64,000 nucleotides of DNA from the NCBI GenBank assembly GCA_903813345.2, contig CAIIXF020000012.1, positions 16,424,020-16,488,019 on the forward strand, written 5' to 3'. The notes under the pieces are model-generated. The model was not told where the DNA came from. It ran no database searches and saw only the letters and a program-made list of their open reading frames with translations. Origin of the DNA: Owenia fusiformis (Eukaryota > Annelida > Polychaeta > Sabellida > Oweniidae). A program made the position numbers and the translations under genes. Below are positions 11,340 to 61,712 of this stretch, piece by piece; the stretch's first letter is position 1, and each line of letters starts with the position of its first letter.

Positions 11340-14330
11340 TATTGGGAAATATTTGTGCTTGTCAAGTACCTAAATGCACATTTGAAATGGAATATACTCG
11401 TATGTGCTTGGCCAGTACTTTAAAGCACATTTGATATGGGGTATATTTGCTTGTCCAGTACCTTAATGTACACTTGATATGGGGTATATTTGCTTATTCA
11501 GTACCTTAATGCACATTTGATATTGGGTATATTTGCTTGTCCGGTACCTTGATGCAAATTTGATATGGGGTATATTTGCTTGTCCAGTACCCGAATGTAC
11601 ATTTGATATTGGGTATATTTGCTTCTCCGGTATCTTAATGCACATTTGATATTGGGTATATGTGGTTGTCCAGTACCTTAAAGCACATTTGATATGGGGT
11701 ATATTTGCTTATTGGTTATATGTGCTTCTCCAGTATCTTAATGCACATTTGATATGGGGTATATTTGCTTCTCCAGTGCATTAATGTACATTTGATATGG
11801 CGTATATGTGCTTCTCCAGTGCATTAATGTACATTTAATATGGGGTATATGTGCTTGACTACCTTAATGTACATTTGATATGGTATATTTGCTTGTCCGG
11901 TACCTTAATGTACATTTCATATGGAGTATATGTGCTTAACCTGTACCTTAATGCACATTTGATATGGGGTATATTTGCTTGTCCAATACCTTAATGCACA
12001 TTTGATTTGGGGTATATTTGCTTGTCCAGTACCTTAATGTACATTTGATATGGGGTATATTTGCTTGTCCAGTACCTTAATGCACATTTGATATGGGGTA
12101 TATGTGCTTGACCAGTACCCGAATGTACATTTGATATTGGGTATATTTGCTTCTCCAGTATCTTAATGCACATTTGATATTGGGTATATGTGGTTGTCCA
12201 GTACCTTAAAGCACATTTGATATGGGGTATATTTGCTTGTCCAGTACCTTAATGTACACTTGATATGGGGTATATTTGCTTATTCAGTACCTTAATGCAC
12301 ATTTGATATTGGGTATATTTGCTTGTCCGGTACCTTGATGCAAATTTGATATGGGGTATATTTGCTTGTCCAGTACCCGAATGTACATTTGATATTGGGT
12401 ATATTTGCTTCTCCAGTATCTTAATGCACATTTGATATTGGGTATATGTGGTTGTCCAGTACCTTAAAGCACATTTGATATGGGGTATATTTGCTTGTCC
12501 AGTACCCTAAAGCACATTTGATATTGGTTATATGTGCTTCTCCAGTATCTTAATGCACATTTGATATGGGGTATATTTGCTTCTCCAGTGCATTAATGTA
12601 CATTTGATATGGCGTATATGTGCTTCTCCAGTGCATTAATGTACATTTAATATGGGGTATATGTGCTTGACTACCTTAATGTACATTTGATATGGGGTAT
12701 ATTTGCTTATTCAGTACCTTAATGCACATTTGATACGGGGTATATTTGCTTGTCCGGTACCTTAATGCACATTTGATATGGGGTATATGTTCTTGACCAG
12801 TACCTTAATGTACATTTGATATGGGGTATATTTACTTATTCAGTACCTTAATGCACATTTGATACGGGGTAAATTTGCTTGTCCGGTACCTTAATGTACA
12901 TTTCATATGGAGTATATGTGCTTAACCTGTACCTTAATGCACATTTGATATGGGGTATATTTGCTTGTCCAATACCTTAATGCACATTTGATATGGGGTA
13001 TATTTGCTTGTCCAGTACCTTAATGTACATTTGATATGGGGTATATTTGCTTGTCCAGTACCTAAATGCACATTTGATATGGGGTATATGTGCTTGACCA
13101 GTACCCGAATGTACATTTGATATTGGGTATATTTGCTTCTCCAGTATCTTAACGCACATTTGATATTGGGTATATGTGGTTGTCCAGTACCTTAAAGCAC
13201 ATTTGATATGGGGTATACTTGCTTGTCCAGTACCTTAAAGCACATTTGATATTGGTTATACGTGCTTCTCCAGTATCTTAATGCACATTTGATATGGGGT
13301 ATATTTGCTTCTCCAGTGCATTAATGTACATTTGATATGGCGTATATGTGCTTCTCCAGTGCATTAATGTACATTTAATATGGGGTATATGTGCTTGACT
13401 ACCTTAATGTACATTTGATATGGGGTATATTTGCTTATTCAGTACCTTAATGCACATTTGATACGGGGTATATTTGCTTGTCCGGTACCTTAATGCACAT
13501 TTGATATGGGGTATATGTTCTTGACCAGTACCTTAATGTACATTTGATATGGGGTATATTTACTTATTCAGTACCTTAATGCACATTTGATACGGGGTAT
13601 ATTTGCTTGTCCGGTACCTTAATGTACATTTGATATGGAGTATATGTGCTTAACCTGTACCTTAATGCACATTTGATATGGGGTATATTTGCTTGTCCAA
13701 TACCTTAATGCACATTTGATATGGGGTATATTTGCTTGTCCAGTACCTTAATGTACATTTGATATGGGGTATATTTGCTTGTCCAGTACCTTAATGCACA
13801 TTTGATATGGGGTATATGTGCTTGACCAGTACCTTAATGTACATTTGATATGGGGTATATTTGCTTGTCCAGTACCCGAATGTACATTTGATATTGGGTA
13901 TATTTGCTTCTCCAGTACCTTAAAGCACAATTGATATGGGGAATATATGTGCTTGACCAGTACCTTAATGTACATTTGATATGGGGTATATTTGCTTATT
14001 CAGTACCTTAATGCACATTTGATATGGGGTATATTTGCTTGTCCGGTACCTTAATGCACATTTGATATGGGGTATATGTGCTTGACCAGTACCTTAATGT
14101 ACATTTGATATGGGGTAAATGTGCTTGACCAGTACCTTAATGCACATTTTATATAGGATATATGTGCTTGTCCAGTACCTTAATGCACATTTGATATGGG
14201 GTATATGTGCTTGTCCAATACCTTAATGCACATTTGATATGGGATATATTTGCATGTCCAGTACCTTAATGCACAATTGATATGGGGTATATGTGCTTCT
14301 CCAGTTACTTAATGCACATTTGATGTCTCC
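11340..14330 (+). repeat. 43-bp satellite array, about 69 units
   Basis: Head-to-tail units of 43 bp built on CCTTAATGCACATTTGATAT followed by GGGGTATATTTGCTTGTCCAGTA. Variants (gca/gta, gtcc/ttct, ggg/ttgg) recur in blocks: the unit group at 11463 reappears at 12249 (786 bp), and a TTAACCTGTACC variant appears near 11937, 12929 and 13650. This shows higher-order amplification by unequal exchange. Long minus-strand open frames here are by-products of a 43-codon super-period (129 nt) lacking stops. The same array, in short form, precedes the second synthetase. Confidence 0.95.
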
Positions 14331-14431
14331 CATGAACTTACAGAAGGTACATGCTTTATCATTTGCATTGGCTACTCTCCCTAGACACCCGAGATTAGCA
14401 TACTATAAATAATTCTGCCGTAATTACTCAT
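14331..14431. other. conserved flank of 43-bp satellite
   Basis: Unique spacer beginning GTCTCCCATGAACTTACAG, repeated almost exactly after the short 43-bp array at 40250 onward. It marks homologous sequence of the duplicated unit. Confidence 0.7.
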
Positions 14432-14820
14432 ATGCGAGTAGGTAGTTACCAGTTTCGCCACCAGGTGACTGATTCGGGGAAATAACATGGCAGGGTATTA
14501 CAAAATTCCCTTTAACTTGAATATTTATCAGTTTTAGTGATTCACTTTTCTTATAACCCTAATGTATCTGATAGTTATACAAATTAAAATGTGTCTAGTA
14601 AAAGAAAATATAACATTATCTGCCCAACACAAGAAAAGATATTTAACTTTTTGTGATTTTACAACATGGGGCCTATGGGAATCTCCCCGACCTAGAAGTC
14701 ACATTTTCAAAGAAAATTAAATTTTCAAAGTTGACAAACTCTTTTCAAAACCAAATTTCTAGATTTAATTTTACACGTAGATTCGAAATATGACATTAGT
14801 TTGATTATTTCTACTCGCAT
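14432..14820 (-). mobile_element. ~400-bp MITE (ATGCGAGTAG family), minus copy
   Basis: Ends are the 10-bp inverted repeat ATGCGAGTAG/CTACTCGCAT. The interior is the reverse complement of the element at 23136-23534. Related copies: 40361-40750 (minus), 52415-52786 (plus) and a partial one at 62172-62394 (plus). Non-coding. Confidence 0.75.
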
Positions 14821-15206: not shown

Positions 15207-16529
15207 ATGAATGGTACCTTGGATATTAAGGACTTTGATTATGTCCGGTTTACATCAGCGGACTACTACGGTCTTCCTCGAGGAAAGGTTATCCCAAAGC
15301 CGCATTTAAATGATGCCCTTGAAAATGGAATTCAGATATATTGTGGTATACTCGGGATGGGATTATCGGGAGCTTTAAAAGCATTCGAACCAGAAGTGAT
15401 CGAAAGAAAATTTGGAAATTGCTATTTGAAACCTGATATTAGCACGTTGAGGCCGATTCCGTGGGCAAGTATGGCGCATAGAAGAGTCGGGGAGGTCATG
15501 TGTGATCTCTATTGGGATAGTGGGTTTAATTCACCGATAGATGCCGCTCCACGAGAGGTTGCTAGGCAACAACTGATTCGTTTAGATGATATGGGATATT
15601 CCTTAAAATCTGGATGGGAATTGGAATTTCATTTGTTTGATGCGGACAAAAAGACACCGATTTACCATGGCAAAACGGGTTATTTTAACCAGTCCATATT
15701 TACGGAGTTTGGTGAGATCTTGTTTCCATTGGAGGAAAATCTTAGAAAAATAGGGGTTGATATGGAGGCATTGATGACGGAGTTTGTTGACGGGCAATTT
15801 GAATTTACAACTGCACCCAAATACGGTCTAAGATCCGCAGATGATGCGTATGTGGCAAAATACGCAATTAAAGAAGTAACAAAGAAAATAGGTTACGTTG
15901 CATCTTTTATGACCAAAAACAGTCCCGATGCCGGATGTGGACTTCACTTCAACTTCTCTCTTTTAGATAAGGCAGGAAAGAACGCGTTTTATGACCCAGA
16001 AACGTCTAACAAACTGTCTAGTGTAGCTGAACACTGGATAGCTGGGTTGATGTCGCATGCCAGAGCGATATTTGTTCTTCATTCTCCAACAGTAAACTGT
16101 TTCAGACGAGTTGGCTTCCCCCTCGCCCCATGTAAAGCTAACTGGGGCATTGAAGATAGATTCGCATCATTAAGGGTTAAAGTTAATGGCGAGAAAAGTA
16201 CTTACATGGAAAACCGAATGGGAGGGGGTCTGGGTAATCCATATCTCATCGTTGCTGCTACACTGGCTGCTGGAATTGATGGACTCCAGCGGAAACTTAA
16301 ACTGCCGGCTGAAAACGATCCGAACGCTCTAGATATTCCACGTAATATTCAGGAGGGCATCGAGGCTCTTAGAGAAGATAAGATAATATGCGAAGCTTTG
16401 GGAGAACAGTTCGTTCGTTTTTTCACTGAAACTAAACTTGAAGCGGAGGCTTCCTTTTTGGACACAGGTATTCCAGAAACTGCCGAAGCATATGGAAAAG
16501 AACGCGACTTTTACATGGATCTACTATAA
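15207..16529 (+). CDS. glutamine synthetase/lengsin-like protein, copy 1
   Basis: Intronless 440-aa frame of the glutamine synthetase class I fold, closest in layout to the lengsin/bacterial gamma-glutamyl-ligase side of the family. The family ligates ammonia or an amine to glutamate with ATP; animal lengsin is reported as a non-enzymatic lens protein. N-terminal beta-grasp part: about residues 12-105. Catalytic core: metal ligands E138 and E140 (GWELEFHLFD), E192 and E199 (TEFVDGQFEF), H247 in GCGLHFNFSL, the R300-R301 and R318/R323 arginines, and E335-N-R337 before GNPYLIVAATLAAG. Because these residues are kept, an active enzyme is plausible; the substrate is unknown. The ATG follows CTACAAA and is shared by both copies. 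Its length matches a full-length protein. No intron and no poly-A tail is visible, so origin by retrocopy cannot be shown. Confidence 0.92.
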   Translation: MNGTLDIKDFDYVRFTSADYYGLPRGKVIPKPHLNDALENGIQIYCGILGMGLSGALKAFEPEVIERKFGNCYLKPDISTLRPIPWASMAHRRVGEVMCDLYWDSGFNSPIDAAPREVARQQLIRLDDMGYSLKSGWELEFHLFDADKKTPIYHGKTGYFNQSIFTEFGEILFPLEENLRKIGVDMEALMTEFVDGQFEFTTAPKYGLRSADDAYVAKYAIKEVTKKIGYVASFMTKNSPDAGCGLHFNFSLLDKAGKNAFYDPETSNKLSSVAEHWIAGLMSHARAIFVLHSPTVNCFRRVGFPLAPCKANWGIEDRFASLRVKVNGEKSTYMENRMGGGLGNPYLIVAATLAAGIDGLQRKLKLPAENDPNALDIPRNIQEGIEALREDKIICEALGEQFVRFFTETKLEAEASFLDTGIPETAEAYGKERDFYMDLL

Positions 16530-17102
16530 AGATCCACAGATGATGCTACGAAGAAAAAGATAAATCCATCGATCTGACAAACTATATGTTTTAAACGCAT
16601 GTTGTACATAGGTTCAACAAGTTGAATTCATTATTAAAGACAGAATCAGATCGATTGGGTTGGGAAAATTGCAAATTGTAAATTGGTGAAATTATTCAAA
16701 AGTACCAAAATGGAGGAATGTATGAATGTATTAATTAATGTAAAAATCTTTAGTTTCCCTCAGATACAGTACACAATTTGGGTATTTTTAGAAAAAGACA
16801 CGACGAGGAATGATACATGTGCCCAAAATTGACAATTTTTCGTCAAGATTATGATCATAAATCATGAAGTTTTTGCTAGATCTGATTCTGCCTTTAATCT
16901 AAATTTTCTTGGAGCCGTTATTGTGTTTAACTTATGTGCTATGCATTCATAAATCGCAAATTCTGGATCGCTTGAAATTATTTTCCTCGATTATATGCGA
17001 CATATAACTGAACTGCATTATATAACCAATCACCGCTCCCATTGTTTCATAAACTTTACATTCCCGCTTCGCGGGCATCCAAAGATTTGAAAAATTACCC
17101 CC
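16530..17102. other. 3' region of synthetase 1 with nested MITE
   Basis: Sequence after the stop is conserved with 42569-43145. No clear AATAAA is close to the stop; a TCAAATAAAATGG lies at about 17150. A MITE occupies 16633-16898. Confidence 0.5.
16633..16898. mobile_element. 266-bp MITE with TTAA-type ends
   Basis: Left end ATTAAAGACAGAATCAGATC is matched by its inverted copy at 16879-16898 with one mismatch. Each end contains TTAA, suggesting a piggyBac-like MITE. The second synthetase has the same insertion, so it predates the duplication and probably lies in the 3' untranslated region. Confidence 0.6.
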
Positions 17103-17276
17103 AGAGAAATGATTCAGTCAATAATGCACACAGTCCAGGGCTTAAATCCTCAAATAAAATGGCAGTAAGAATCTCTAATTAGCTTGAACTTAGCTACAAA
17201 GCTATAAGTGGTATTTGTCGCAACGCATTTAGCAAACGCAAAACAATAGAAGCGTAAAGTAGCGAACACACGTTAA

Positions 17277-17366
17277 TGCCTGGGTCACATTTGCTCCGAT
17301 CCATCGCCCGATTGAGTGTTTTGTTCAATACTGTATTCAATTTTGAACGAAATACTCAATCGGCCG
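17277..17366 (+). repeat. MITE-like palindrome in U1
   Basis: Begins with CCTGGGTCACATTTGCTCCG, the TIR of the complete element at 62746-62852, then a palindrome (GATTGAGT...ACTCAATCGG). The right TIR is missing; the hexanucleotide tract starts where it should be. U1 lacks a GCCGGCGCCCGC stretch present in the other three. Confidence 0.65.
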
Positions 17367-17690
17367 GACTTTGCCTTGATTTGGAACTGGACATCGGCCT
17401 TAACTGGGCTTGGACTGGAACTGGACTTGGACCAGGACTGGCCTTGGACATTGACTGAACTTGGGCCTTGGCTTGGACATTGACTTTTACCTAGACTGAA
17501 CTTGGACTACACTTGAACCTGGACTGACCTCGGACCTGGACTGGACTTGGACTTGTACTTGGACATGGATTTGGACTTTGACCTTATTCTGGACTTTGAC
17601 TGGACCGGACCTTACCTGGACTTGGACCTGGATCCATACTTGGACCTGGACCTTGAGTTGGACCTGGAACTGGACTGGTCTTTTTTCAAT
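17366..17690 (+). repeat. GGACYT hexanucleotide tract
   Basis: Imperfect (GGACTT/GGACCT)n of about 320 bp. The plus frame reads Asp-Leu dipeptides and the minus frame Gln-Val/Ser-Lys patterns, giving open frames on both strands. These are products of the repeat, not genes. Copies at 30413-30707, 43420-43735 and 57692-57985. Confidence 0.9.
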
Positions 17691-17744
17691 ATTTTCCTCA
17701 CTTTTCTTCGAGACTTTTTTGCAAAAGAAAATTTTGTTCCAGGC

Positions 17745-17970
17745 TTAATTGGCAAAAAGAGTTTTGCTTCGAGTTTTTTTGGGCAAATAATGTTGATGCA
17801 AAACGAAAACGTTTTTTGGGGTAAAAGCCTCGAAGAAAACCGTTTTTGCCAAAAAAGCCTTGAAGCAAAACGTTTTTTGCCAAAAAGCCTCGAACCAAAA
17901 ACTTGAAAAAGCTTGTTTTGTCAAAAAAAAACTCGAACCAAAACAATTTTTGAAAAAAGCCTCTTAAGAG
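17745..17970 (+). repeat. ~30-bp minisatellite (AAGCCTCGAA units)
   Basis: Tandem units of about 30 bp containing GCCTCGAA and AAAACGTTTTTTG with alternating purine/pyrimidine runs. Equivalent tracts at 30770-30990, 43800-44015 and 58060-58265. Confidence 0.8.
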
Positions 17971-18843
17971 AAATGTACAACAACCATTTTAAATTGTCTT
18001 TATTACTTTTTGTAAAGCTGCTTGACCTGATAAAAAAATGTATGCAAAAAAAGTTATTGTTATGTTATTCAATTCTTTTGGGAAAGGGTTAAACTTGAAC
18101 ATAAAGTTTAATGAATTTGCATATTGATTCAGTGATACTCCTTTTTAGGGCAAAGCTGTAGCATGGCTAAAGTAGGGGGCCTTGGAATGAGATCTTAGAC
18201 CGAAAAAATGGTTCCAATGTTCGGTCACATTGCAAGCCCTAGAGCAGAGTGAACCTCTTGACTTTCATCACGATATTGTATTTGCTTTTCTTATACCCTT
18301 CTGCCCTTGAGAGATTGACTGGGAATTTGCATTGTTATATATTAGGAAAAAATTAAATAAATATATCTTAAAATAAAAAGTAAAAAAACATTCAGGACAT
18401 CTTTCAGTTACCTAACATCAGTAATATTTATATGAGACTCCAAACTCTACTCGCGAAGTAAAATGCATTCACACGATGTACTTAATTATTCAACATGCAA
18501 AGCATTAAGTGTATAACAGTAGCATAAGGCAGGTCGTAGGGAGAAACCGATTTCGAGTTAAAACACACATTTCTTATGACAAGAATAGATTGATTTGAAA
18601 TAAAAACAAATAGAAAATTGTATAAAGGTCGTTTTAATAAGTTGAATGTTGTTTCGAAAATGGTTTAAGTGTGCATGTAAGAAAGTAAAAAACACTTAAC
18701 GTTTGACTTTTATAACTATACCTTTGGAGACACACGTATTGAATTTCTGCATTAACATTTACGTTAAGTGACAACGTAAAAAGGGTGAAATCCTAAAGAG
18801 GACAACACACACCGTAATCCTAACAGGTACCAAATTCAATAAA

Positions 18844-21800
18844 ATGCGAAACATGTGCAAATGGTTCATAGTTACCATATTGTTGTTTTACGTTAATGGA
18901 TTCCTTTCCAAAGAATGGAATTCAGAAGATACAGCAAACCTGGAGGAACGAATTGCAACCGTAATGGAGTGCAGACGTGTTCCGGGAATGTTTCTGTCTG
19001 TGGTGAAGGATGATACTGTTGTTTTAAGCAAGGGCTATGGATACAAAGATATTGAGAAGAATGAGCCATTTACAGCTCAGACGCCAATGTCGATACAAAG
19101 CACGTCAAAATTTATGTTTACAATCCTCACTGCCCGAATGCTGACGAAATATCCACAGTAAGTAGGGATGCATATTTCAAGCGGATGAATTTGGTCGAAA
19201 GAATTCAAAGATGGTGATATAGGCTGCGTTAATTTTTAGAGAGAAATATATGTCGCGTGGGTATCAACTAGAGAGTTAGAGTTGTCAAACTCCCTTAATC
19301 ATATGCATAATTACTACATGTACATTAGGTATGCATTTTCACTTGCTGTCCAGTCATAAGCATAACTACATGTACATTAGGTATGCATTTTCACTTGCTG
19401 TCCAGTCATATGCATAACTACATGTTCATTAGGTATGCATTTTCACTTGCTGTCCAGTCATATGCATAACTACATGTACATTAGGTATGCATTTTCACTT
19501 GCTGTCCAGTCATATACATAGCTACATGTTCATTGGGTATGCATTTTCACTTGCTGTCCAGTCATATGCATAACAACATGTTCATTAGGTATGCATTTCA
19601 CTTGCTGTCCAGTCATATGCATAACTACATGTTCATTAGGTATGCATTTTCACTTGCTGTCCAGTCATATGCATAACTACATGTTCATTAGGTATCCATT
19701 TCACTTGCAGTCCAGTCAAATGCATAACTACATGTTCATTAGGTATGCATTTTCACTTGCTGTCCAGTCATATGCATAACTACATGTTCATTAGGTATGC
19801 ATTTCACTTGCAGTCCAGTCAAATGCATAACTACATGTTCATTAGGTATGCATTTTCACTTGCTGTCCAGTCATATGCATAACTACATGTTCATTAGGTA
19901 TGCATTTTCACTCGCTGTCCAGTAATATGCAAAACTAAACATGTTCATTAGGTATGCATTTCACTTGCTGTATAGTCATATGCAAAACTAAACATGTTCA
20001 TTAGGTATGCAGTTTCACTTGCTGTCCAGTCATATATGCATAACTACATGTTCATTAGGTATGCATTTCACTTGCAGTCCAGTCAAATGCATAACTACAT
20101 GTTCATTAGGTTTGCAGTTTCACTTGCTGTCCAGTCATATATGCATAACTACATGTTCATTAGGTATGCATTTCACTTGCAGTCCAGTCATATGCATAAC
20201 TACATGTTCCTTAGGTATGCATTTTCACTTGCTGTATAGTCATATGCAAAACTAAACATGTTCATTAGGTATGCATTTCACTTGCAGTCCAGTCATATGC
20301 ATAACTACATGTTCATTAGGTATGCATTTTCACTTGCTGTATAGTCATATGCAAAACTAAACATGTTCATTAGGTATGCAGTTTCACTTACTGTCCAGTC
20401 ATATATGCATAACTACATGTTCATTAGGTATGCATTTTCACTCGCTGTCCAGTCATATGCATAACTACATGTACATTAGGTATGCATTTTCACTCGCTGT
20501 CCAGTCATATGCATAACTACAAGTTCATTAGGTATGCATTTTCACTTGCTGTCCAGTCATATGCATAACTACATGTACATTAGGTATGCATTTTCACTTG
20601 CTGTCCAGTCATATACATAACTACATGTTCATTAGGTATGCAGTTTCACTTGCTGTCCAGTCATATGCATAACTACATGTACATTAGGTATGCATTTTCA
20701 CTTGCTGTCCAGTCATATGCATAACTACATGTACATTAGGTATGCATTTTCACTCGCTGTCCAGTCATATGCATAACTACAAGTTCATTAGGTATGCATT
20801 TTCACTTGCTGTCCAGTCATATGCATAACTACATGTACATTAGGTATGCATTTTCACTTGCTGTCCAGTCATATACATAACTACATGTTCATTAGGTATG
20901 GATTTTCACTTGCTGTCCAGTCATATGCATAACTACATGCACATTAGGTATGCATTTTCACTTGCTGTTCAGTCATATGCATAACTACATGTACTTTAGG
21001 TATGCATTTTCACTTGCTGTCCAGTCATATGCATAACTACATGTCCATTAGGTATGCATTTTCACTTGCTGTCCAGTCATATGCATAACTACATGTACAT
21101 TAGGTATGTATTTTCACTTGCTGTCCAGTCATATGCATAACTACATGTACATTAGGTATGCATTTTCACTTGCTGTCCAGTCATATGCATACTACATGTA
21201 CTTTAGGTATGCATTTTCACTTGCTGTCCAGTCATATGCATAACTACATGTCCATTAGGTATGCATTTTCACTTGCTGTCCAGTCATATGCATAACTACA
21301 TGTACATTAGGTATGCATTTTCACTTGCTGTCCAGTCATATACATAACTACATGTTCATTAGGTATGGATTTTCACTTGCTGTCCAGTCATATGCATACT
21401 ACATGCACATTAGGTATGCATTTTCACTTGCTGTTCAGTCATATGCATAACTACATGTACATTAGGTATGCATTTTCACTTGCTGTCCAGTCATATGCAT
21501 AACTACATGTCCATTAGGTATGCACTTTCACTTGCTGTCCAGTCATATGCATAACTACATGTACATTAGGTATGCATTTTCACTTGCTGTCCAGTCATAT
21601 GCATAACTACATGTACATTAGGTATGCATTTTCACTTGCTGTCCAGTCATATGCATACTACATGTACATTAGGTATGCATTTTCACTTGCCGTCCAGTCA
21701 TATGCATAACTACATGTACATTATGTATGTATTTTCACTCGCTGTCAAGTCAGAAAATAGCATAACCGTGCTTTACCGGTGTAAACATTAAACTGATCAT

Positions 21801-36170: not shown

Positions 36171-36171
36171 T

Positions 36172-44877: not shown

Positions 44878-47800
44878 ATGCGAAACATGTGCAAATGGTT
44901 CATACTTACCATATTGTTGTTCTACGTTAATGGATTTATTTCCAAAGAATGGAATTCAGAAGATACGGCAAACCTGGAGGAACGAATTGCAACCGTAATG
45001 GAGTGCAGACGTGTTCCGGGAATGTTTCTGTCTGTGGTGAAGGATGATACTGTTGTTTTAAGCAAGGGCTATGGATACAAAGATATTGAGAAGAATGAGC
45101 CATTTACAGCTCAGACGCCTATGTCGATACAAAGCACGTCAAAATTCATGTTTACGATCCTCACTGCCCGAATGCTGACGAAATACCCACAGTAAGTAGG
45201 GATGTATATTTCAAGCGGATGAATTTGGTCGAAATTAATCAAAGATGATGATAGAGACTGCGTTAATTTTTAGAGAGAAATATATGTCGCGTGGGTATCA
45301 ACTAGAGAGTTAGAGTTGTCAAACTCCCTTAAAATATCGCGTTCATTTGCAGAATTGGGGATGTATGGTTTAAATAATTGTGTTAAAGAAACGGTATGCT
45401 TTTTCACTTGCTGTCCAGTCATATGCATAATTACTACATGTACATTAGGTATGCATTTTCACTTGCTGTCCAGTCATAAGCATAACTACATGTACATTAG
45501 GTATGCATTTTCACTTGCTGTCCAGTCATATGCATAACTACATGTTCATTAGGTATGCATTTTCACTTGCTGTCCAGTCATATGCATAACTACATGTACA
45601 TTAGGTATGCATTTTCACTTGCTGTCCAGTCATATACATAGCTACATGTTCATTGGGTATGCATTTTCACTTGCTGTCCAGTCATATGCATAACTACATG
45701 TTCATTAGGTATGCATTTCACTTGCAGTCCAGTCAAATGCATAACTACATGTTCATTAGGTATGCATTTTCACTTGCTGTCCAGTCATATGCATAACTAC
45801 ATGTTCATTAGGTATGCATTTCACTTGCTGTCCAGTCATATGCAAAACTACATGTTCATTAGGTATGCATTTTCACTTGCTGTCCAGTCATATGCATAAC
45901 TACATGTTCATTAGGTATGCATTTCACTTGCTGTATAGTCATATGCAAAAATAAACATGTTCATTAGGTATGCAGTTTCACTTGCTGTCCAGTCATATAT
46001 GCATAACTACATGTTCATTAGGTATGCATTTCACTTGCTGTCCAGTCAAATGCATAACTACATGTTCATTAGGTTTGCAGTTTCACTTGCTGTCCAGTCA
46101 TATATGCATAACTACATGTTCATTAGGTATGCATTTCACTTGCAGTCCAGTCATATGCATAACTACATGTTCATTAGGTATGCATTTTCACTTGCTGTAT
46201 AGTCATATGCAAAACTAAACATGTTCATTAGGTATGCATTTCACTTGCAGTCCAGTCATATGCATAACTACATGTTCATTAGGTATGCATTTTCACTTGC
46301 TGTATAGTCATATGCAAAACTAAACATGTTCATTAGGTATGCAGTTTCACTTGCTGTCCAGTCATATATGCATAACTACATGTTCATTAGGTATGCATTT
46401 TTACTCGCTGTCCAGTCATATGCATAACTACATGTACATTAGGCATGCAGTTTCACTTGCTGTCCAGTCATATGCATAACTACATGTACATTAGGTATGC
46501 ATTTTCACTCGCTGTCCAGTCATATGCATAACTACATGTACATTAGGTATGCATTTTCACTCGCTGTCCAGTCATATGCATAACTACAAGTTCATTAGGT
46601 ATGCATTTTCACTTGCTCTCCAGTCATATGCATAACTACATGTACATTAGGTATGCATTTTCACTTGCTGTCCAGTCATATACATAACTACATGTTCATT
46701 AGGTATGGATTTTCACTTGCTGTCCAGTCATATGCATAACTACATGCACATTAGGTATGCATTTTCACTTGCTGTTCAGTCATATGCATAACTACATGTA
46801 CATTAGGTATGCATTTTCACTTGCTGTCCAGTCATATGCATAACTACATGTCCATTAGGTATGCATTTTCACTTGCTGTCCAGTCATATGCATAACTACA
46901 TGTACATTAGGTATGCATTTTCACTTGCTGTCCAGTCATATGCATAACTACATGTACATTAGGTATGCATTTTCACTTGCCGTCCAGTCATATGCATAAC
47001 TACATGTACATTTTGTATGTATTTTCACTCGCTGTCAAGTCAGAAAATAGCATAACCGTGCTTTACCGGTGTAAACATTAAACTGATCATTCACATTTGA
47101 CAAGTAGGGTCTGTATATTTCTATTAAGTGTGATAAATTACAGTTATATAAAAGTCCCGTAAAAATCTTAAAGGTACGATTCTTGCTTTAAGTTTAACTG
47201 TTTGTAAATACAAGTTCAGATTAAATTTCGTATGTGTAATTGAATTTGACGCGGAGCTCGATGAATTATGCATGATTTAGGCCCAGGCTTCACATGCAAA
47301 CCAAAAAATCATGCAATTCCGAGCACAATTGACCATATCATCATCCCTACGCAAAAGAAGGACTGGGTGGTTAACTGCAGTGTTATTCCAGACAACTACC
47401 ATTGTTCTGATCATCTGCCAATAACTGCTAAATTACAATTTAACTTCGAATCACAATTTCATCCTAATTATACCAGTCCTTCTCTGGCGTGGGACAAAGT
47501 GTCAATTGATCATATAGAAAATTCATATGCTTCCTCTCTTGCAGTTGAGTTTCAACAAGTAATCTTAGATGTTGAGCAGGGACGCACTCATAGCACTGAC
47601 GCTCTAAACGACCAGATAGTTAACGCACTAAACGCAAGCAGGAAGTCAATCCCAGTCCGAAAATTTCGTCACTATCTCAAACCATATTGGAAACTAGGAA
47701 GAGTAAAGGAACTTCACTGCAAACAAAAGGAAGCCCGCAAAGCTTGGTTACGAGATGGACAACCTCGCGGAACACAACACGCAACATATCTTAGGTATAA

Positions 47801-50800
47801 AAGTGCCAAACGGGAGTTCCGACACGCCCAGAAACTAGCCATCGAAGAATGGACAGCGTCTATTTACGCCGAGATTGATAACTCTGCAGAAACTGACCAG
47901 AAGCTAATGTGGTCGATCATGAAAAAGCAAAAAGGTAAAACAATCCCAACATGTGAAGAACTAAAAATTGGTGAGGAAGTAATTCGTAACCCCGTGTCAA
48001 TAACAAACGCATTTGCTGATCACTCTAAGAAGATCTTTGCCAAATTAGAATCACCGCATTTTGACTCGACTTTCCATGATGCAGTGGAACAACGAGTACA
48101 CAATATCTACGCAGACCCAGAACAGCTCACAGCCCCAGATCCTATCCTCAGCGACCCTTTCACGGCAGAGGAAGTGTCCAAATCAGTCAAATCCCTGAAG
48201 AGGCGCAAAGCCACCAGCTTTGATAACATCACTAATGAACATCTAATCTATGGAGGGGATGCACTCATCAAAGTACTAGTCATACTGTACAACATGATTA
48301 CAACAACAGCTCACCCTCCATTGGCCTTCTCTCAAGGACTGATCTCAAAACTTCATAAAGGAGGCAGCAAGTCAAGACTGGACCCGAATAACTACAGAGA
48401 CATTTCCTTACTCCCCGCAATAGAGAAACTCTGGGAGAAACTCATTAAACAAAGAATAACCAAACACGAGAAAACGTCGAAAACGAGGCTTACTAAAAGT
48501 AGACATCAATACGCTTATGAAAAGGGGCTATGTAGTACCTCATGTAATTTTAACATTCTGGAGACAATATACAGGGTGTCCAAAAAAAAACAGGACCGTA
48601 AGAAAGTTGAATAACTCGGTCAATTTTGCATATTTTGCCTTGAAATTTCAGAATTATTTAGTTCATTCAATGTGAATTTTGTTGTGAAAGTTTGATAATA
48701 ATCTACCATTTGAGTCAAAAACTACAGCTCCTTACAAAACATGCCCCAAATGTGCAAATCTCATCCCTATGCACAATTCAATCCGGCGAACAAGGCTGTT
48801 GATGATCCTCCTACACACATGTCTTTCTGAATGGACAAGTTTGTTCCAAGAACAATTGCTACTGGGGCTTACATCCTCCTGATGAAGTGTTACAGCATCC
48901 ATTGCATTCTGAACAATGCACTCCCTGGGTGGCAATGAGGAAACATGGAATCATCAGTCCCTTTTGTTTCGAAGGTGACTGGGGACTTGCTATCACCATG
49001 AACAAGGACCAGTAAGTTCTCACCAAGTTTTGGAGGTCACTAAGCACCAGAAGGGACATCTAAGGAGATAATTAAGCAGTGGTTTCAACAAGCCAATACC
49101 ACCCCAACACTGCAAATGATATGCTGAAATGGTTTAGGCAATGCTTTGGTGGTCAGCTCATCAGTTGCAGAACGCAAACCATATGGGCAGCTCATTCGCC
49201 TGATCTAAATCCCCCAAATTTTTAAGCCAATTTGTATACTGACAGGCCCCTAACAATCTTAAGAGGGCAATAACTACCCCAATATTTACCATCCACATTA
49301 ATGTGTGTAGGTAAGGGTCATTAACAACTTTGTTCACAGGATTCGTTTGTGCATAGAGAGGAGAAGTGCCCACTTTGAGCATGTTTTGTAAAGGACTGTA
49401 GTTTTTCACACAATGAATTCACATTGAATGAACTAAATAATTCTAAAATTTCAAGGCAAAATATGCAAAATTGACCGAGTTATTCAACTTTCTTACGGTC
49501 CTGTTTTTTTTTGGACACCCTGTATTATAACAAAGAACGCGGTCAAAAAACGTTTATTTCCTGTTTTGACAGCGCCAAAGCCTACGATACCGTGTATCAC
49601 TCTGGTCTGTTTCTAAAGCTGCATCACCTAGGAATCCGCGGGCGCTTCTGGAACATCCTTTATGAACAATATAAACACCTAACGGGTGCTATAGTATTTA
49701 AAGGGTATCAGTCAGAGTGGTTTCCCATTGAACAATCTGTGAGGCAGGGCGGAATTCTATCTGGCTGGCTGTATACCATTTACATTGACGAGCTCCTGAT
49801 TATGATAGAAAACTCAGGTTACGGAACAATGATGCACGACATCCCATGCTGCATTGCGACATATGCGGACGACATTGCTCTAATAGCCAACACCAAACAA
49901 GCATTAGATCGCATGATGTCAATAGTCATTGATTACTCCAAACAATGGCGTTTTAATTTCAACGTAGGAAAATCATCAATTATGACTTTTGGAGAATCAA
50001 AACAGACAAATGAAAAATTACGCCTAACTCGAAGATGGACAACAGAAATAGGGGAGATAAATGAAACGGAAAAAATGAAACATCTTGGAAACTTGTTCCA
50101 ATCAACACTAGAGCGCCAAAGCACTATCACCAATGCGTGTCAGAAGATGAGAGGCTCGTTTGCGTCCCTAGTTGGCATAGGGGTACATCCCAAGGGTCTT
50201 AATCCGCTAACTGGTCTCAAACTGATAAATTCAATTTGCATACCGTCTGCGCTTTATGGATGTGAACTCTGGCACAATCTAACTAACAGCAATATACTTG
50301 AACTAGAGAGAGCCCAAAGGCTAGTACTTAAAAATCTCCTAGAATTGAGTAAAACAACCAGAACAGATGATGTTTATGGCCTCACAGACACCATGCCCAT
50401 TGAAAGCACAATTGACAGTAGGAAACTTTCGTTCCTCGGAAGGCTATGCAACATGAACCAAACCTCAATAACTAAGGACGTTTTCTTATTCAGAGCACAT
50501 TCAAATCATCTAAAAACCAATAAAATTGTACAGAAAGGTTATATACCGGATATATGGAATGTGCTCGAAAAGCACAACCTTGAAGACTATTTGTTGAACT
50601 ACCTTGACAATGGATACTTTCCACCAAACAAGCTATGGAATAAAATCTGCAGATATCAGGTAAAACAGACACAAATATGCTCTGAAAATAGAGCAAACAG
50701 AACAGATGCACGGATACCAACAAACAGATTAAGAGAACACCAATTATGGAAAACTGCTCAAAAGGACCATACGATACTAAGAGAATCATTAACAATGGCG

Positions 50801-53800
50801 AAGGTGATATCAATGCCACTCGAAAATAGGGAATCTTTGTGTGAAAAATGTGGAATGCTTTACAATGACACTATTTCACATATTCTTCAAGAGTGCGCCA
50901 ACCACAACTCGCAAAGAGAGCAAGTTATCAGAGCCCTCAACTTAAACCAAGATGAAGAATTCAGTCGTTTACCGAACGTCAGTGCTACGATCTGCAGACC
51001 ATCAGACTCAAACACAGAGATCTCAACAACTGTTGTTACAGAGTATTTACACTATGTTGATCGATTGATAAGGGAAAATAATGTATCATTGGTACCTCCA
51101 TTTCCGAACACTGCACAAAATTAACCACATGATTGTATTGTTTTCTTATTTAACCTTGTACCTTTAAAATTGTGATGTTATTATTAATGACGCTAGCAGA
51201 ATACTAGTGTCAATGCACCTGTAATATAAGTTCATATGAAATCCACACATATGTGGGAAATAAAGATACATACATACATACATAAACCAGCTATGAATCC
51301 AATTTAAACTAAAATGTTTGCGTTTTCTGGAGGATGAACCTCTGTAGAATACATTGCATGCATTCTTTTACTAAGGTTTTTATATTTCATAAACTTAATA
51401 TGTTCTTTTTGAAACACAACATGTTTCAAAATATACAGAATATATTTCTCTAACATTGAGATCTGTCGGCTATTGCGCAGTATAGTAATCTATTTTTAGA
51501 CTAGCTTGTTGTTCACGAATTTGAGATCAACAAGGTGAGACCTCAATGATCTCTGACTTTTGATTCACCGGTTAGACTGATCTCTGACTTTGGGATCAAC
51601 TGCTAGACCTATATGATCTCTGATTTTAATGACCTCTGATCTTGAGGTTAGGTATAAAAGCCAATGTTTCAAGAATTGCGCAGTTTTTAAAAGAAGTTTT
51701 TAGAGAAGTTTTATATTGAGTCTTGAAACAGTAGGAGATATTGTGGAAATTGTAATTATTAAGAGATTGAAGAAATAAAATATATTTTAATACGCCTCTG
51801 AAGGAAAGTATTTTGTGTTTGAATCTAACATCCAAAAATACGTAACACCTCTTCAGTTATTATTTTGTTTTAGGTATTCATTTGACACAACCATCAAAGA
51901 TCTTCTGGGAGACGAATTCGAATTGTCCGATAAAACTTCGGAAAAGGAGGTTACAATCAGAGTGAGTATAAAAACTATATGACTTTATTTTGATTATATC
52001 ATAGTACTATATAGATATCTGTATAAAATCAAAACAGCGTATATGTTATTGAGCACAATGGATTTAGAAAATGGTCAATTGGTAACATGAATTGTACTCA
52101 AAGAACAACTAAAATAACAAAGAAAGCAAGATTTAAAGAGCTCTACTATTGTACTATTTGTTTCTCTCTGTATTGTCAGGATATCCTATCAATGAGGCAT
52201 GGAATAGGTGACGGAGAAGTATTCTATGATTTAGTACAGAACTTTTTTGCCTGGACGAAAGATGACTACATCAGGTAATGTACTAAGAGGGTTATTCAGC
52301 GTAACATCGATATAAGGGGTATGTTTGTCATATATATTATTTTTGGAAACACCGTGCGTACGTTCGAGTGTCCGGTTTAGGGGTTTCAACATAATTTTAC
52401 TGATGCAATTGCTAGATGCGAGTAGAAATAATCTTGATTTACATCATTAAAGATTCAAAAAGTCAAGCTGATGTCATATTTGAAACCTACATGTAAAAGA
52501 ACATTAAGAAATATGGTTTCGAAAATTGTTCATCAACTTTGAAAATTGAATTTCTCTGGAAAATGACTTTAGTTCGGGGAATTTCCCAGACAGATAACAT
52601 TTTCTTTTACTGGATATATTTTCATTTGCATAACTATTAGATACATAAGGGTGATATGAAAATTGAACAACAAAAACAAATATAATTTAAGTTAAAGGGA
52701 ACTTTTTATTATACCCGCCATGCTATAGCTACAGTACATGTATCTGACCCGATCGATGGTGAAACTGGTAACTACCTACTCGCATCTGCTCATCATTTTG
52801 TCTCGCCTTGGACAATGTACTTTTTCATCGTTTGAGCCCTCTGCATATTAAGAGGCCCATCTAGCATTGAACTCTGCATAGTGCATATCTCAAATAGCAA
52901 CATATTTCATGGGGTGGAAATATTAAATATTGATATAACATCTAAAAGTAAAATAGGGAGGGGAAAAGCTTTAAGGTTTATTTCAATGACGGTCACGAAA
53001 TTAAAGATGAAACAATCTGTTTTTACATTTTATATTACATGTAGTCCTCGTCACGTGTGTCTTTAACAAATAGAAGACTATGACAGTGAATATGTAAAAC
53101 TCATATTTTCAGACAAATAAAGCATTATCCGGTAACCGATGAAATTAGGCGAGCATACCACTACTCAAGTGCTGGATTTGCGTTTCTTGAAAAAGCGTTT
53201 GAGTTACTTGAGAATAAAACAACCAAACAGATTTTACACGACGAATTGTTTGAGCCATTGGGTATGGTAAATTCAAATACAATAGACGAGGCTCGATTCG
53301 ATGACAATTACGCCTTAGGGTACCAACCGGGTTCAAATGGGACACTTATCAAAGTAACTGGAAACTTTGTAAGGTACATTTAGTTTCAAATGGACGAATG
53401 GTGTAAATTTGCCATCTATGATTACATTTTACGTTTTTCATTATTACTTAGTACAATAACCATAAAGTAGATACCATTACTACATCTCACGTGAATATTA
53501 TAAAATGCACTGTTAATTATTCGATTATACCAAAAAAGGATGAATTGTTTGTAGAATGAATCGGGGGAGTTTTTTCAAGCTTTGCGCCTTTATATCGCAA
53601 CCCAAAAAGGTGTGTATTAAAGATTTACTTTCCTGTTACCCCAAAAATCTGCTTGGAACTATACCATTGGATTTCTATGGTAAATTCCTCAAAATGAAAT
53701 TCCAGGGTTTGAGGAACGGGTACCATTTAAAAAAGTTATTGGCTTACATGAAACCTACTTAAAGCAGCATTTACATTATTCAAGCGAATAGAATCAATGA

Positions 53801-56442
53801 TTCCCAGTCCTCTGAAGTTGAAAAAAATCCTGGGTGTTAATCCATCATTCTACAAACAACTCTCCCTCCTTTGAGGCAAAATTCAGGGTGATTTTTACCC
53901 GGGGGTCTTTACATTGATAAAAATCCGTCCGTGAATTCTAGGATATCCCCTTCATATTTTCAGTCGTAGTTCTGGGATGATTGGCGGTTATGGGATGGCT
54001 AGTACTGCAGACGACCTTGCCAAGTATCTAAGATTCGTCCTGAGAGGTGGAGTTTTAGAGGATGGAGAAACAGTTGTGAGTGTGATAACTTTCCAAACGA
54101 TATATGTTAGAATTGTGAGTGGACCATTCTCTGAACTCACTTTAACGACAAACTATAGCGTCTGAAAGATTGATTGATCAGTCATTGATTGAATCGATTT
54201 TCGGCGGTTGATACCATAATACCCTCATTTCATTTTCATTTTTTTGGAATCTCAGATCTACACCGACTGAAGGGTACCCTTTGTCCGTTTCAGTACTTTG
54301 AACAATATTATTTTATATTCACTAGAAGCCTAAGACTTTAAGCCGTCGTTCAAAATCTTGCTTTTAAACTTTCGTGACTAAAACGATCCATTCATTGGTT
54401 CATGGTGTGAATTAAAAGAATGAAATTCTACCAGAAGCTTAACTCACTGCTGGTCAATGCTATTTTAGGATTTTCTGCTGGTGACTGGTCATTTTGATGA
54501 ACAATTTGTCAAATTGCATGTTTTCAGATTTAGCATAAAATGGACTGTATCAACAATCAACACCCTATTTTTCGTGTTTATTGACCCCTACACTATTTGG
54601 TAAGATTATTGGTACAAATTGTGTGACAATTATTGGACAGCACCCCGAGATATCGGGGTTGGTCAGTCACAGATTGGTGTTACTAAGGGAGGGAACTTGA
54701 AGAATTATATGGGATTATAAATATTCATAATGATAATAATTATATTCCAGCACGTAAACAGAGATCTTATAGAAGACGCCCTATCACCACAAATGTTTTA
54801 CCCAAATCCATATGGTGGATTCACTGTTGTCGATGGTTACTCTATGAGACCAGCTGCCCCATTTACAAGCCATACGTATGCCTACGGGTTGGCATCATGG
54901 CATCGTTATTACAGAGGTGAGTATCTTCCTTTAGAGTTGCTAGAGTAATAAGTAGGGCAATTGACTGTCTCCTAAAATAATTGTAAAATAACTGCACGCA
55001 TAAATATTTCTCATCAATGTGTTTTCCATCCAGTAAGATCCCTTGATATAGAATCCAAGAACATTGATTGGGACATTTTACGAACATCGCACTTATCTCC
55101 TCCAAAATGGATCTAATTGTATCTTATTTTTTATTGCATATGGACAATTTACAGATTTAAAGAGGCCCTATGCAATAGGATAGCACAATCAAGACCCCTC
55201 TGGACTTTTTCAGTGTTAATTTTGCGATTGTGCTGACCGATCTAATTATTTTCGAAGAAATTAATTCAATCTGAAGTTTGATTATACCGGGAAAGTCCTC
55301 CTGTTATCTGATTGGTCGTTGCATTTGTTTATCATGAACCTGATTGGCTGCCCTGTTCAAGGCGCTTGTGTGACTCAATGGGTATTCCCCTCGTTAGCCG
55401 AGGAATGTTTAATTCTGGAGTTTGGTTGTTCTGTTGATTATATTTCAATTTCGGCAATAATATACCCAAAAGTTATTCTTAGGATATATCCATGGTATGT
55501 GACATATTATATGAGCAATAACAATAGGACACCATTAATTGTCTGGGGGAGAAACCTATGGTATAATGCATCTTTAAAAAGGAAATCTGTGACCTATTAA
55601 AAGGGGATGCGTCGAAAATCTGGTTTGAAAAATATCATAATTTTGATGACCAAAATTAGGCTAAAAAGGATAGCATGACCTTTGAGAAATCAATGTGGAA
55701 TATGTTATTTTCAACTTAATCACTGAACTTTTTCAAAATTCCAAAATTGTTAAAGGTTATTTCACATAACTTGTTGGTTAATACTCTGCTATTTCGAATA
55801 TGATTTATAGAATGAATAATTCCAGGATTTCAGTTGGTGCAGCATACCGGAAGTCACTTCTCAGACACATTGATGACTTACCACCCAGATTTAAAGATTG
55901 GTATCTACGCTGGTTTAAATGGCCCATATGAGCGAGTATCATGGGCCGTTGAAACCATCGTTCATGAATACATTCTCGATATACTTCTTGATTTGCCGAA
56001 CTACTTGAACCAAACAACGGTGTGTAGCTTTCCCGCCCCCTGGGGAGAGCCAGTGGATATTCCAACGTTTACTGCTATCCTAGAGGACGTAGCTTCGACG
56101 CTTCCGCTGGAGGAATATACCAGTGTATTTGGGCGTGCTGCATTCGGATGCATGCATATGACTTTGAATCGAACCGATGATGACACCGAAGTCTTACAGT
56201 TTTCTATGAGTGAGGCCAGAATGTTCGCATATCCGAAAGAAGGACAGGCTCACGAGTTTTGGTTGAAAGGAGTAGATGATATGTACCACTTGTGGTATAC
56301 TGGACCTTATTCAATTAGATTTACTGAATCCAATGGTCTTATAAATGAACTCATATATCAAGGATTAGAGTTTGAGCGAATGCCTGATGACAGTGAGCGA
56401 TTGTGTTCGTTTTACCTTACAGGTCAGCAAGACGCGGATTAG
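44878..56442 (+). CDS. secreted beta-lactamase-like serine hydrolase, copy 2 (7 exons)
   Basis: Exons: 44878-45191, 51874-51961, 52180-52274, 53113-53373, 53964-54075, 54751-54916, 55826-56442, with the same lengths and phases as copy 1 and a 550-aa product. It keeps S86-x-x-K89, Y183-S-S185 and H352-T-G354, the hydrophobic N-terminus and the C-terminal barrel domain. Sixteen substitutions from copy 1: two in exon 1, two each in exons 4 and 6, ten in exon 7; exons 2, 3 and 5 are identical in protein. Intron 1 is 6.7 kb because of a 52-bp satellite plus a LINE with a nested mariner element. The exon 4 donor is GTACAT, weak as in copy 1. The frame is intact, so the gene is probably functional. 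Confidence 0.87.
45396..47020 (+). repeat. 52-bp satellite array in intron 1 of hydrolase 2
   Basis: About 31 units, shorter than in copy 1 but with the same order of variants (AAGC-type unit first, then missing-t and CAAAACTAAACATG units). This indicates duplication of the array with later loss of units. Confidence 0.95.
47282..51124 (+). pseudogene. LINE endonuclease-RT reading frame, interrupted by a mariner-type insertion
   Basis: Two open blocks, about 47282-48571 and 49525-51124, are in different frames only because of the 951-bp transposon plus its 2-bp TA duplication (953 nt). Subtracting that length puts both blocks in one frame with no other stop or shift, about 960 codons. The LINE was therefore coding-competent from its truncation point when the transposon landed, and must be young. 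Confidence 0.8.
48572..49522. mobile_element. mariner/Tc1-type DNA transposon, decayed
   Basis: Terminal inverted repeats of about 100 bp begin CAGGGTGTCC and are flanked by TA on both sides (48570-48571 and 49523-49524). Inside, the plus strand keeps shredded transposase pieces: a VAMRKHGIISPFCFEGD stretch near 48925 and HSPDLNPPNF near 49190, the familiar DDE-domain end of mariner/Tc1 enzymes. Many frameshifts; not active. Minus-strand open frames here are shadows. Confidence 0.85.
51283..51873 (+). other. 3' part of intron 1 with LTR-like block
   Basis: Aligns with 22012-22604 of copy 1. Includes GGTATAAAAG at 51651 and AATAAA at 51774. Confidence 0.5.
52415..52786 (+). mobile_element. 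~370-bp MITE (ATGCGAGTAG family) in intron 3 of hydrolase 2
   Basis: Duplicate of 23136-23534 with a deletion of about 27 bp in the middle. Confidence 0.72.
55161..55577. mobile_element. ~417-bp insertion in intron 6, copy 2 only
   Basis: Copy 1 reads ACAGATTTAACAAGGAAATC at the corresponding place. Copy 2 has this block between two TTTAA sequences (55156-55160 and 55573-55577). The ends are weakly inverted (TTTAAAGAGGCCC and GCATCTTTAA). Non-coding; the 93-codon open frame inside is incidental. A recent MITE-like insertion after the segmental duplication. Confidence 0.65.
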
Positions 56443-56894: not shown

Positions 56895-57115
56895 TAAAAG
56901 GGGCTGAGTTGACTTGGGGTTGAGTTTTACTGGATAAACTTGACTTGGGGTTGAGTCTTACTGGGGTTGACTTGACTGGGGGTTGACTTTTACTGGGTTG
57001 ACTTGACTTGGGCCGGTTGAGAGTTACTGGGGTTGACTTGAGTTGTGGTTGAGTTTTACTGGGTTGACTTGACTTTGGGTTTAGTTTTTCTGGATTTACT
57101 TGACTTGAGGTTGGG
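56895..57115 (+). repeat. ~31-bp minisatellite, second copy
   Basis: Same TTGACTTGACTTGGGGTTGA-type units as 29600-29830, with unit turnover. Confidence 0.85.
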
Positions 57116-57410
57116 ATGACGAGTCACCGATGACCATATCACTGAAGATGTACTGTATTTTTTCATATTTTTCAATTATCAATTTAAGAGAAAAAATGTT
57201 GTAACAAGTTCACCAATACCCAGTCATATGATAAAACGTTTTAGAAGAAAAAAAGATCATTTAAAATGTAAGGTGTCTGTGCCTTCTAAATATCTTCGAT
57301 TTCGTACTTCATCAGGACTGGCTTTCGACTAAATTCTTGCTGGAGAGTAATTTATTTTGACATTGCAAATTCTTGATATTTCTTTGAATAAAAATAAGCA
57401 CAAAGAGCAC

Positions 57411-58722
57411 AGAGAAATGATTCAGTCAATAATATACACAGTCCAGGGCTTAATCTGTTAATTCCTCAAATAAAATGGCAGTAAGAATCTCTAATTAGCT
57501 TGAACTTAGCTACAAAGCTATAAGTGATATTTATCGCAACGCATTTAGCAAACGCAAAACAATAGAAACGTAAAGTAGCGAACACAAGTTAATGCCTGGG
57601 TCACATATGCTCCGATCCATCGGCCGGCGCCCGCCCAATTGAGTGTTTTGTTCAATACTGTATTCAATTTTGAACGAAATACTCAATTGGCCGGACTTTG
57701 CCTTGATTTGGAACTGGACATCGGCCTTAACTGGACTTGGACCTGGACTGGCCTTGGACATTGACTGAACTTGGGCCTTGACTTGGACATTGACTTTGAC
57801 CTGGACTGGACTTGGACTACACTTGAACCTGGACTGACCTCGGACCTGGACTTGTACTTGGACATGGATTTGGACTTTGACCTTATTCTGGACTTTGACT
57901 GGACCGGACCTTACCTGGACTTGGACCTGGATCCATACTTGGACCTTGACCTTGAGTTGGACCTGGACCTGTAACTGGACTGGTATTTTTTCAATATTTT
58001 CTTCTCTTTTCTTCGAGATTTTTTGCAAAAGAAAAAATTTGTTCCAGGCCCAATTGGCAAAAAAAAGTTTTGCTTAGAGGCTTTTTGGGCAAATAATGTT
58101 TTTTTTAAATAATGCCTTGAAGCAAAACGAAAACGTTTTTTGGGTAAAAGCCTCGAAGAAAAACGTTTTTTGCCAAAAAGCCTCGAACCAAAAGTTTTTT
58201 TTGAAAAAAGCTTGTTTTGTCAAAAAAAAACTCGAACCAAAACGTTTTTTGAAAAAAACCTCTTAAGATAAATGTAGAACAACCATTTTAAATTGTCTTC
58301 AGTACTTTTTGTAAAGCTGCTTGACCTGATAAAAGAAATGTATGCAAAAAGGTTATTGTTATGTTATTCAATTCTTTTGGGAAAGGGTTAAACTTGAACA
58401 TAAAGTTTAATGAATTTGCATTTTGATTCAGTGATACTCCTTTTTAGGGCAAAGCTGTAGCATGGCTAAAGCAGGGGGCCTTGGAATGAGATCTTAGACT
58501 TAAAAAATGGTTCCAATGTTCGGTCACATTGCAAGCCCTAGAGCAGTAGAGCAAAGTGAACCTCTTGACTTTCATCACGATATTGTATTTGCTTTATTTT
58601 CTTGTACCCTTCTGCCCTTGAGGGATTGAATGGGAATTTGCATTGTTATTGTTACGGTATTAAATAAATATACGTATCTTAAAATAAAAAGTAAAAATAC
58701 ATTCAGTACCTCTTTCAGTAAC
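57411..58722 (+). repeat. 5' module, copy U4, truncated
   Basis: Palindrome from about 57597, GGACYT tract 57692-57985, 30-bp minisatellite 58060-58265. Homology to U2 ends at CTTTCAGTAAC (58722), about 400 bp before exon 1 would be expected. No hydrolase exon follows. This is the right boundary of the duplicated region within the window. Confidence 0.8.
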
Positions 58723-61708: not shown

Positions 61709-61712
61709 TTAT

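Follow-up and report, generated by a model that had tools for sequence, protein, structure and literature searches.

We identified a small array of two neighbouring genes in a 64,000-nucleotide stretch of the Owenia fusiformis genome (assembly GCA_903813345.2, contig CAIIXF020000012.1, positions 16,424,020 to 16,488,019 of the forward strand), referred to below as the window and numbered from its first base. One gene encodes a class I glutamine synthetase (GS) family protein, here called the synthetase, and the other a hydrolase with the penicillin-binding-protein/beta-lactamase fold. We propose that the array grew by exchange between repeats, that the synthetase is a gamma-glutamyl-amine ligase, that the hydrolase is secreted, and that the two genes were amplified together as a by-product of their arrangement. 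We put the probability of this reading as a whole at roughly 0.54.

The window is eukaryotic DNA, as judged from its GT-AG introns, long interspersed nuclear elements (LINEs), satellites and repeats resembling miniature inverted-repeat transposable elements (MITE-like repeats). On the plus strand, the parts of the array follow each other in the order 43-bp satellite, synthetase A, module M, hydrolase A, module B, hydrolase exon 1 B, 52-bp satellite, LINE, 43-bp satellite, synthetase C, module M, hydrolase C and module M′. Unit A opens with a 43-bp satellite array of ~69 units (11328–14324), followed by synthetase gene A (15207–16529), a single coding exon for 440 amino acids. Module M of this unit (17102–18411), a direct repeat, ends ~430 bp 5′ of exon 1 of hydrolase gene A (18844–29112), whose seven coding exons (18844–19157, 22605–22692, 22901–22995, 23862–24122, 24709–24820, 27775–27940 and 28496–29112) encode 550 amino acids. 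Unit C has ~11 units of the 43-bp satellite (39771–40252), synthetase gene C (41246–42568, 440 amino acids), module M (43145–44464) and hydrolase gene C (44878–56442), again with 550 amino acids in seven exons (44878–45191, 51874–51961, 52180–52274, 53113–53373, 53964–54075, 54751–54916 and 55826–56442). Introns of both hydrolase genes are of the GT-AG type. Module M′ (57410–58722) lies 3′ of hydrolase C; homology to the unit stops at 58722, and the sequence beyond it has no match to the unit in our self-comparison.

An earlier note on this DNA had described a single 26-kb tandem duplication of the two genes. Self-comparison of the window, which it had proposed as a check, does reveal a long repeated structure. 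The synthetase start codons (15207 and 41246) are 26,039 bp apart and those of hydrolase exon 1 (18844 and 44878) 26,034 bp apart, exactly as the note gave them, and satellites, MITE-like repeats, modules and exon phases come in the same sequence in both units. Both genes are intact in both units: the synthetases are open over all 440 residues and differ at nine (98.0% identity), and the spliced hydrolases differ at 16 of 550 (97.1%), agreeing with the 97–98% reported. Co-duplication of two intact neighbouring genes therefore stands. The notion of one simple 26-kb event does not; it is contradicted by a truncated hydrolase copy (B) with a mixed module and by a unit boundary that joins a LINE to satellite. 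Moreover, the A-to-C offset varies along the unit (25,928, 26,036, 29,272, 26,984 and 27,322 bp) because copy C holds a ~4-kb LINE in intron 1 and because satellite lengths differ (2,991 bp of 43-bp array in A vs 482 bp in C).

The truncated copy provides the clearest record of how the array grew. A third hydrolase exon 1 (31861–32174, plus strand, ATG at 31861) lies midway between A and C and is 99.0% identical to that of A. Copy B stops in intron 1 at the start of a LINE, and exons 2–7 were found in the window for A and C only. The upstream module occurs four times, beginning at 17102 (copy A), 30131 (copy B), 43145 (copy C) and 57410 (copy D, which is M′), and module B (30131–31430) is of mixed parentage, with a left part like D, a right part like A and C, and a switch near 31136–31278. 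Over 17102–18260 in A coordinates (30131 to ~31278 in B), module B is 98.6–99.7% identical to D and 83.8–98.3% identical to A. Over the following 152 bases (18260–18412), it is 97.4% identical to A, 98.0% to C and 88.8% to D, and homology to D ends there. At sites where two of the copies A, B and C share a base against the third, the sharing pair is A and C at 58/72 sites left of the switch vs 17/49 to its right (Fisher p = 4.5e-7); on the right, the pair is A and B at 26/49 sites, more often than A and C. The shift persists after exclusion of a highly divergent patch (20/26 vs 17/49, p = 0.0006). Unequal crossover or gene conversion between direct repeats flanking the hydrolase would yield such a module.

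Divergence between units A and C is likewise uneven. They differ at 256 of 10,642 aligned sites (~2.4%), and values across 36 windows of ~300 bases range from 0% (at 17025) to 6.6% (at 24111; chi-square 120, p ~3e-11), in a scan that omitted the poorly aligned 27455–28255 and window tails. Noncoding modules differ by 0–2%, vs 4–5% for the largely coding 3′ end of the hydrolase. This unevenness is most simply explained by repeated exchange or conversion, and the rise towards the 3′ half of the hydrolase may stem from converted modules or from segments of different age. Within copy B, we also observed that 36580–36909 is 98.7–100% identical to 21721–22008 of A over 281 aligned bases, a higher value than for most of B that may point to recent exchange.

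The LINE that closes copy B (36910–39770, plus strand) adjoins the 43-bp satellite of unit C directly at 39771; the junction contains no N, and inspection by eye shows an overlap of six bases at most. In a domain search, this LINE matched an endonuclease domain, and a reverse-transcriptase domain was not found. The appearance of the junction suggests non-homologous joining, through which a second complete unit would have been brought in. The locus is a small hydrolase/synthetase array with direct 1.3-kb modules, M and M′, on either side of the hydrolase. We infer that misaligned module copies exchanged, by unequal crossover or conversion, to produce the mixed module B and the third hydrolase, and the LINE-to-satellite join would then have set the second synthetase–hydrolase unit alongside. 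The gene pair was probably multiplied by ordinary unequal recombination.

Judging from its sequence, the synthetase probably acts as a gamma-glutamyl-amine ligase and not as a glutamine synthetase. It matches the class I GS family (PF00120, E = 4.8e-73), and its predicted model has the class I GS fold (predicted template-modelling score 0.81, mean predicted local distance difference test score [pLDDT] 72.5), with template-modelling scores of ~0.75–0.83 to class I GS entries among the 50 Foldseek matches listed. The two longest internal stretches of low confidence are residues 48–68, the N-terminal loop, and 302–320, the flap. In Escherichia coli GlnA numbering, used throughout for this protein, the synthetase keeps E129, E131, E212, E220, H269, R321, R339, R344, E357 and R359, to which we assign, partly by assumption, roles at the glutamate, ATP, metal and phosphate sites. 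It lacks D50, S53, H210 and E327, all four of which are present in 20/20 GlnA rows of our alignment, both copies carrying Y, I and L in place of D50, S53 and E327. Neither D50 nor E327 occurs in any of the 14 other (non-GlnA) rows; in a wider alignment of 65 bacterial relatives, D50 is present in 62 and the flap glutamate E327 in 63. Describing the gene as ‘glutamine synthetase-like’, as had been done before, is thus apt for fold and family and misses the loss of D50, S53 and E327 from the ammonium site.

At 36 residues, the N-terminal loop equals that of PuuA in length, compared with 24 in 18/20 GlnA rows (22 and 23 in the remaining two, whose starts are cut) and 33–43 in 12/14 others. In a tree of 34 rows, the synthetase joins 12 of the 14 non-GlnA rows, including PuuA, with support of 99/98, and an approximately unbiased (AU) test rejects its grouping with GlnA (p = 0.031). 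The enzyme would use ATP to convert glutamate into gamma-glutamyl phosphate, and an organic amine rather than ammonium would then receive the glutamyl group, as in PuuA and NpaA1/GoaS. Loss of the catalytic Asp50′ and the Glu flap has been described for amine-glutamylating enzymes (PMC11335346), and ammonium-site changes have served as an argument for the function of GlnA2 and GlnA3 (PMC8998196). No report of amine glutamylation by animal class I GS-like enzymes was found among the literature matches listed. The synthetase copies diverge with a ratio of nonsynonymous to synonymous rates (dN/dS) of 0.31 (nine nonsynonymous and eight synonymous changes; synonymous divergence 0.028).

Comparison with known systems shows where the likeness ends. 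With GoaS and other gamma-glutamyl-amine ligases (E. coli PuuA and Pseudomonas NpaA1, 8wwu), the synthetase shares its family, the glutamate, ATP and metal residues, the loss of Asp50 and the flap Glu327 and, for PuuA, the loop length; the comparison with the N-terminal ‘15th motif’ loop of GoaS concerns length alone. It differs from that group in its distance (~30–36% identity to the best plasmid relatives listed), in Asn271, Tyr355 and a retained Tyr179, in its eukaryotic host, and in that no PuuD-like partner was found in the frames searched. With type I GlnA, it shares the fold, the best sequence scores and Tyr179; it differs in lacking D50, S53, H210 and E327 and in its longer loop. The C-terminal region of fungal FluG is another eukaryotic GSI-like sequence, proposed to gamma-glutamylate unknown compounds and replaceable by PA5508 (PMC6478659). 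FluG, which we compared by description only, differs in being one polypeptide with a further part.

The hydrolase matches PF00144 (E = 1.7e-36). Its best solved relative is 2qmi, followed by others of this fold, and LACTB (7v21) matches as well. The protein would be a serine hydrolase of the penicillin-binding-protein/beta-lactamase fold, acting as a peptidase or esterase, and we presume that it belongs with the S12/CubicO-type enzymes. The protein may also be linked to the oyster shell protein gigasin-6, which the one paper found mentions by name only, in a table. With its strongly hydrophobic N-terminus, a probable signal peptide, and five N-glycosylation-type sites, the hydrolase is likely secreted or lumenal. 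Like 2qmi and metazoan LACTB, it has an SxxK motif (STSK at 86), a Tyr motif (YSS at 183) and HTG at 352; it differs from them in the form of the second motif, in the probable signal peptide and in a C-terminal region that is weakly DUF3471-like (E = 0.0037, under the cut-off). A predicted structure of the last exon, with a pLDDT of 32, carries no information and was not used. Between A and C, hydrolase dN/dS is 0.147 (17 nonsynonymous and 30 synonymous changes; synonymous divergence 0.090).

Both families have bacterial members, and we compared the synthetase with bacterial, plasmid and viral sequences and the hydrolase with plasmids and viral contigs only. In 69 loci, identity to the synthetase reaches at best 33% along the whole protein and 38% along a part; among plasmids (60 of 772 records listed), the best value is 35.6%, with best relatives at ~30–36%. 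The best plasmid match to the hydrolase is 26.2% identical among those listed (15 of 116 records). Six peptide patterns per protein detected no relative of either in viral contigs. In E. coli, puuA adjoins puuD, and 7/9 annotated non-GlnA plasmid relatives lie beside or near an amidotransferase or gamma-glutamyl-GABA hydrolase-like gene, two of these seven also near a ring-hydroxylating dioxygenase gene. The short flanks shown of these bacterial relatives contain no beta-lactamase-type product name. A Rhizobium gene beside the nearest tree relative was considered as a beta-lactamase, and a domain check identified it as an amidase.

Several points weigh against the reading we favour. The array copies are read from assembled sequence. 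Because D is not alignable right of 31430, the modules do not distinguish crossover from conversion. Synthetase dN/dS is based on 17 changes. The AU test does not reject a grouping of the synthetase with GlnA plus type III (p = 0.09), and support for its tree position is moderate. The 14 ‘other’ rows were grouped by the same residues that are used here as evidence, and E. coli PuuA is the only one of them named as an amine ligase. Tyr179, which is found in 20/20 GlnA rows vs 4/14 others and has been named as an ammonium-site residue (PMC8998196), is kept. Position 271 is Asn, as in 10/20 GlnA rows, and His in 14/14 others; R355 (Arg in 20/20 GlnA rows and 12/14 others) has become Tyr; and the loss of N264 is weak evidence since this residue is present in only 14/20 GlnA rows. 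Streptomyces GlnA2 glutamylates polyamines while keeping D50 and a Glu at 327 (PMC8998196), so the losses are not required for amine glutamylation. The best solved structures by sequence are GlnA (169 bits), ahead of NpaA1 (8wwu, 153 bits) and GmaS (9qur, 130 bits), and Foldseek places GlnA first, GmaS 33rd and NpaA1 44th among the matches listed. Scores of 195 bits to NF045547 and 195 bits to TIGR00653 lie below the curated cut-offs (650 and 429 bits), the former of which is passed by 0/14 control genomes, E. coli included. For the hydrolase, the second motif, YSS, departs from [SY]X[NT] and aligns with YLN of 2qmi; of the SXXK, [SY]X[NT] and [KH][ST]G motifs that define the metazoan LACTB family (PMC2266909), it has the first and third.

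Other identities can be proposed for the synthetase from much the same residues. If the protein were an ordinary glutamine synthetase that uses ammonium despite an unusual active site, this would account for Tyr179, for an Asn271 shared with many GlnA and for the top sequence and fold scores. Such an enzyme would have parted with three residues, D50, S53 and E327, that no GlnA row lacks, two of which (D50 and E327) are also nearly constant in the wider set of relatives, and we regard this identity as improbable. More serious, if still unlikely, is a lengsin-like class I GS relative that has no ligase activity and serves a structural or regulatory role. The losses of D50, S53 and E327 and the change at R355 favour this alternative, as does a 64-bit match to PDB entry 2j9i, which we take to be a lengsin. 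Lengsins are described as a class I GS family of ancient origin, with expanded gene sets reported from tubeworms (PMC8789280); lengsins and other animal class I GS relatives, compared here by description only, likewise include GS-like genes in more than one copy. Retention of all ten glutamate-, metal- and phosphate-site residues checked would be unexpected in a dead enzyme, however, and the loop and flap follow the PuuA pattern.

The array and its gene content also have competing explanations. An assembly or haplotype artefact, in which A–B and C–D are alleles of one locus set in tandem, would be consistent with the ~2.4% divergence and insertion differences if this invertebrate is very heterozygous, and the join does fall within repeats. 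Yet the window contains no N, the join has no long overlap, and a LINE–satellite junction of this kind argues against an artefact. Nor do the flanks behave as alleles: 36910–39770, before unit C, has no match to 1–11327, and neither 31431–32384 nor 36910–39770 matches 58723–64000, although allelic flanks would match unless the join happened to coincide with the edges or to lie within the extra copy B. The mixed parentage of module B requires real exchange however the units are placed. We consider an artefact unlikely; the array is probably real but of an ordinary kind. It is very improbable that the enzymes form one functional module, co-amplified because the dosage of both was selected. Both genes are intact and under some constraint in both units, but hydrolase copy B has no synthetase of its own beside it, the predicted locations differ (a strongly hydrophobic start in the hydrolase and not in the synthetase), and the bacterial relatives compared have other partners. 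Joint action of the two enzymes is unsupported, and they probably work in different compartments. Equally speculative is the proposal that an animal class I ‘GS’ which probably glutamylates amines was multiplied with a secreted hydrolase for one route, for example dismantling foreign or bacterial amides and capturing the freed amines, and we think it improbable. Co-amplification is most likely a by-product of the common repeat unit: the genes were duplicated together because they share it, which suffices as an explanation. Finally, recent transfer of the synthetase from bacteria is unlikely because the closest bacterial relatives found are ~33–36% identical, and recent transfer of both genes, for which the presence of both families in bacteria might speak, is exceedingly improbable given these distances, the 26.2% identity of the hydrolase to its best listed plasmid relative and the six introns of that gene. 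The designation ‘bacterial-type’ that had been given to the enzymes thus applies to the occurrence of their families and not to a recently bacterial origin, the best synthetase matches being only 33–38% identical.

Several further features of the repeats were noted. The hydrolase exon-1 starts (18844, 31861 and 44878) are spaced by exactly 13,017 and 13,017 bp. Homology between these two stretches is limited to the module, the satellite and the start of intron 1; with no common sequence found behind the equal spacings, we take them as a coincidence. A 52-bp satellite array occupies 19299–21752 in intron 1 of hydrolase A, and its counterpart in copy B (32385–36172) is split by an inverted-repeat element of ~1.1 kb (34011–35113). 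The inverted arms of this element span ~400 bases and are 88% alike, and it has TA at both edges, as in mariner/Tc1-type insertions, a class judged by eye. A second LINE (47282–51282, plus strand, with an RVT_1 domain) lies in intron 1 of hydrolase C, where ~71 bp of A are absent. This LINE and the different one in copy B each have an edge within ~3 bases of one intron-1 site (22008–22011 in A, 36909 in B and 47281–51283 in C), as if the site were a preferred LINE target. Members of a dispersed family of short MITE-like repeats occur at 14429–14810, 23178–23536, 40357–40741, 52457–52788 and 62169–62409, in both orientations and ~72–79% alike between non-allelic places. The modules contain long frames of simple peptide repeats (17517–17906, 30252–30794 and 57531–58073) that are probably not genes. 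No tRNA, tmRNA or Rfam family was detected in the window at gathering score. In the flanks, where Pfam was searched in two of the three plus frames of 1–11300, the three minus frames of 1–9990 and all six frames of 59010–64000, the only match was a sub-threshold one to a 28-position leader peptide, which we attribute to chance.

A repeat copy whose mixed parentage can still be read, such as module B, helps to show how gene arrays grow between repeats. Members of the synthetase family are readily named glutamine synthetase. If amine glutamylation proves to be the activity of this protein, the name would give a wrong picture of what it does in nitrogen metabolism, and gene counts that have been read as ammonia handling, as suggested for the tubeworm lengsins (PMC8789280), would need to be rechecked.

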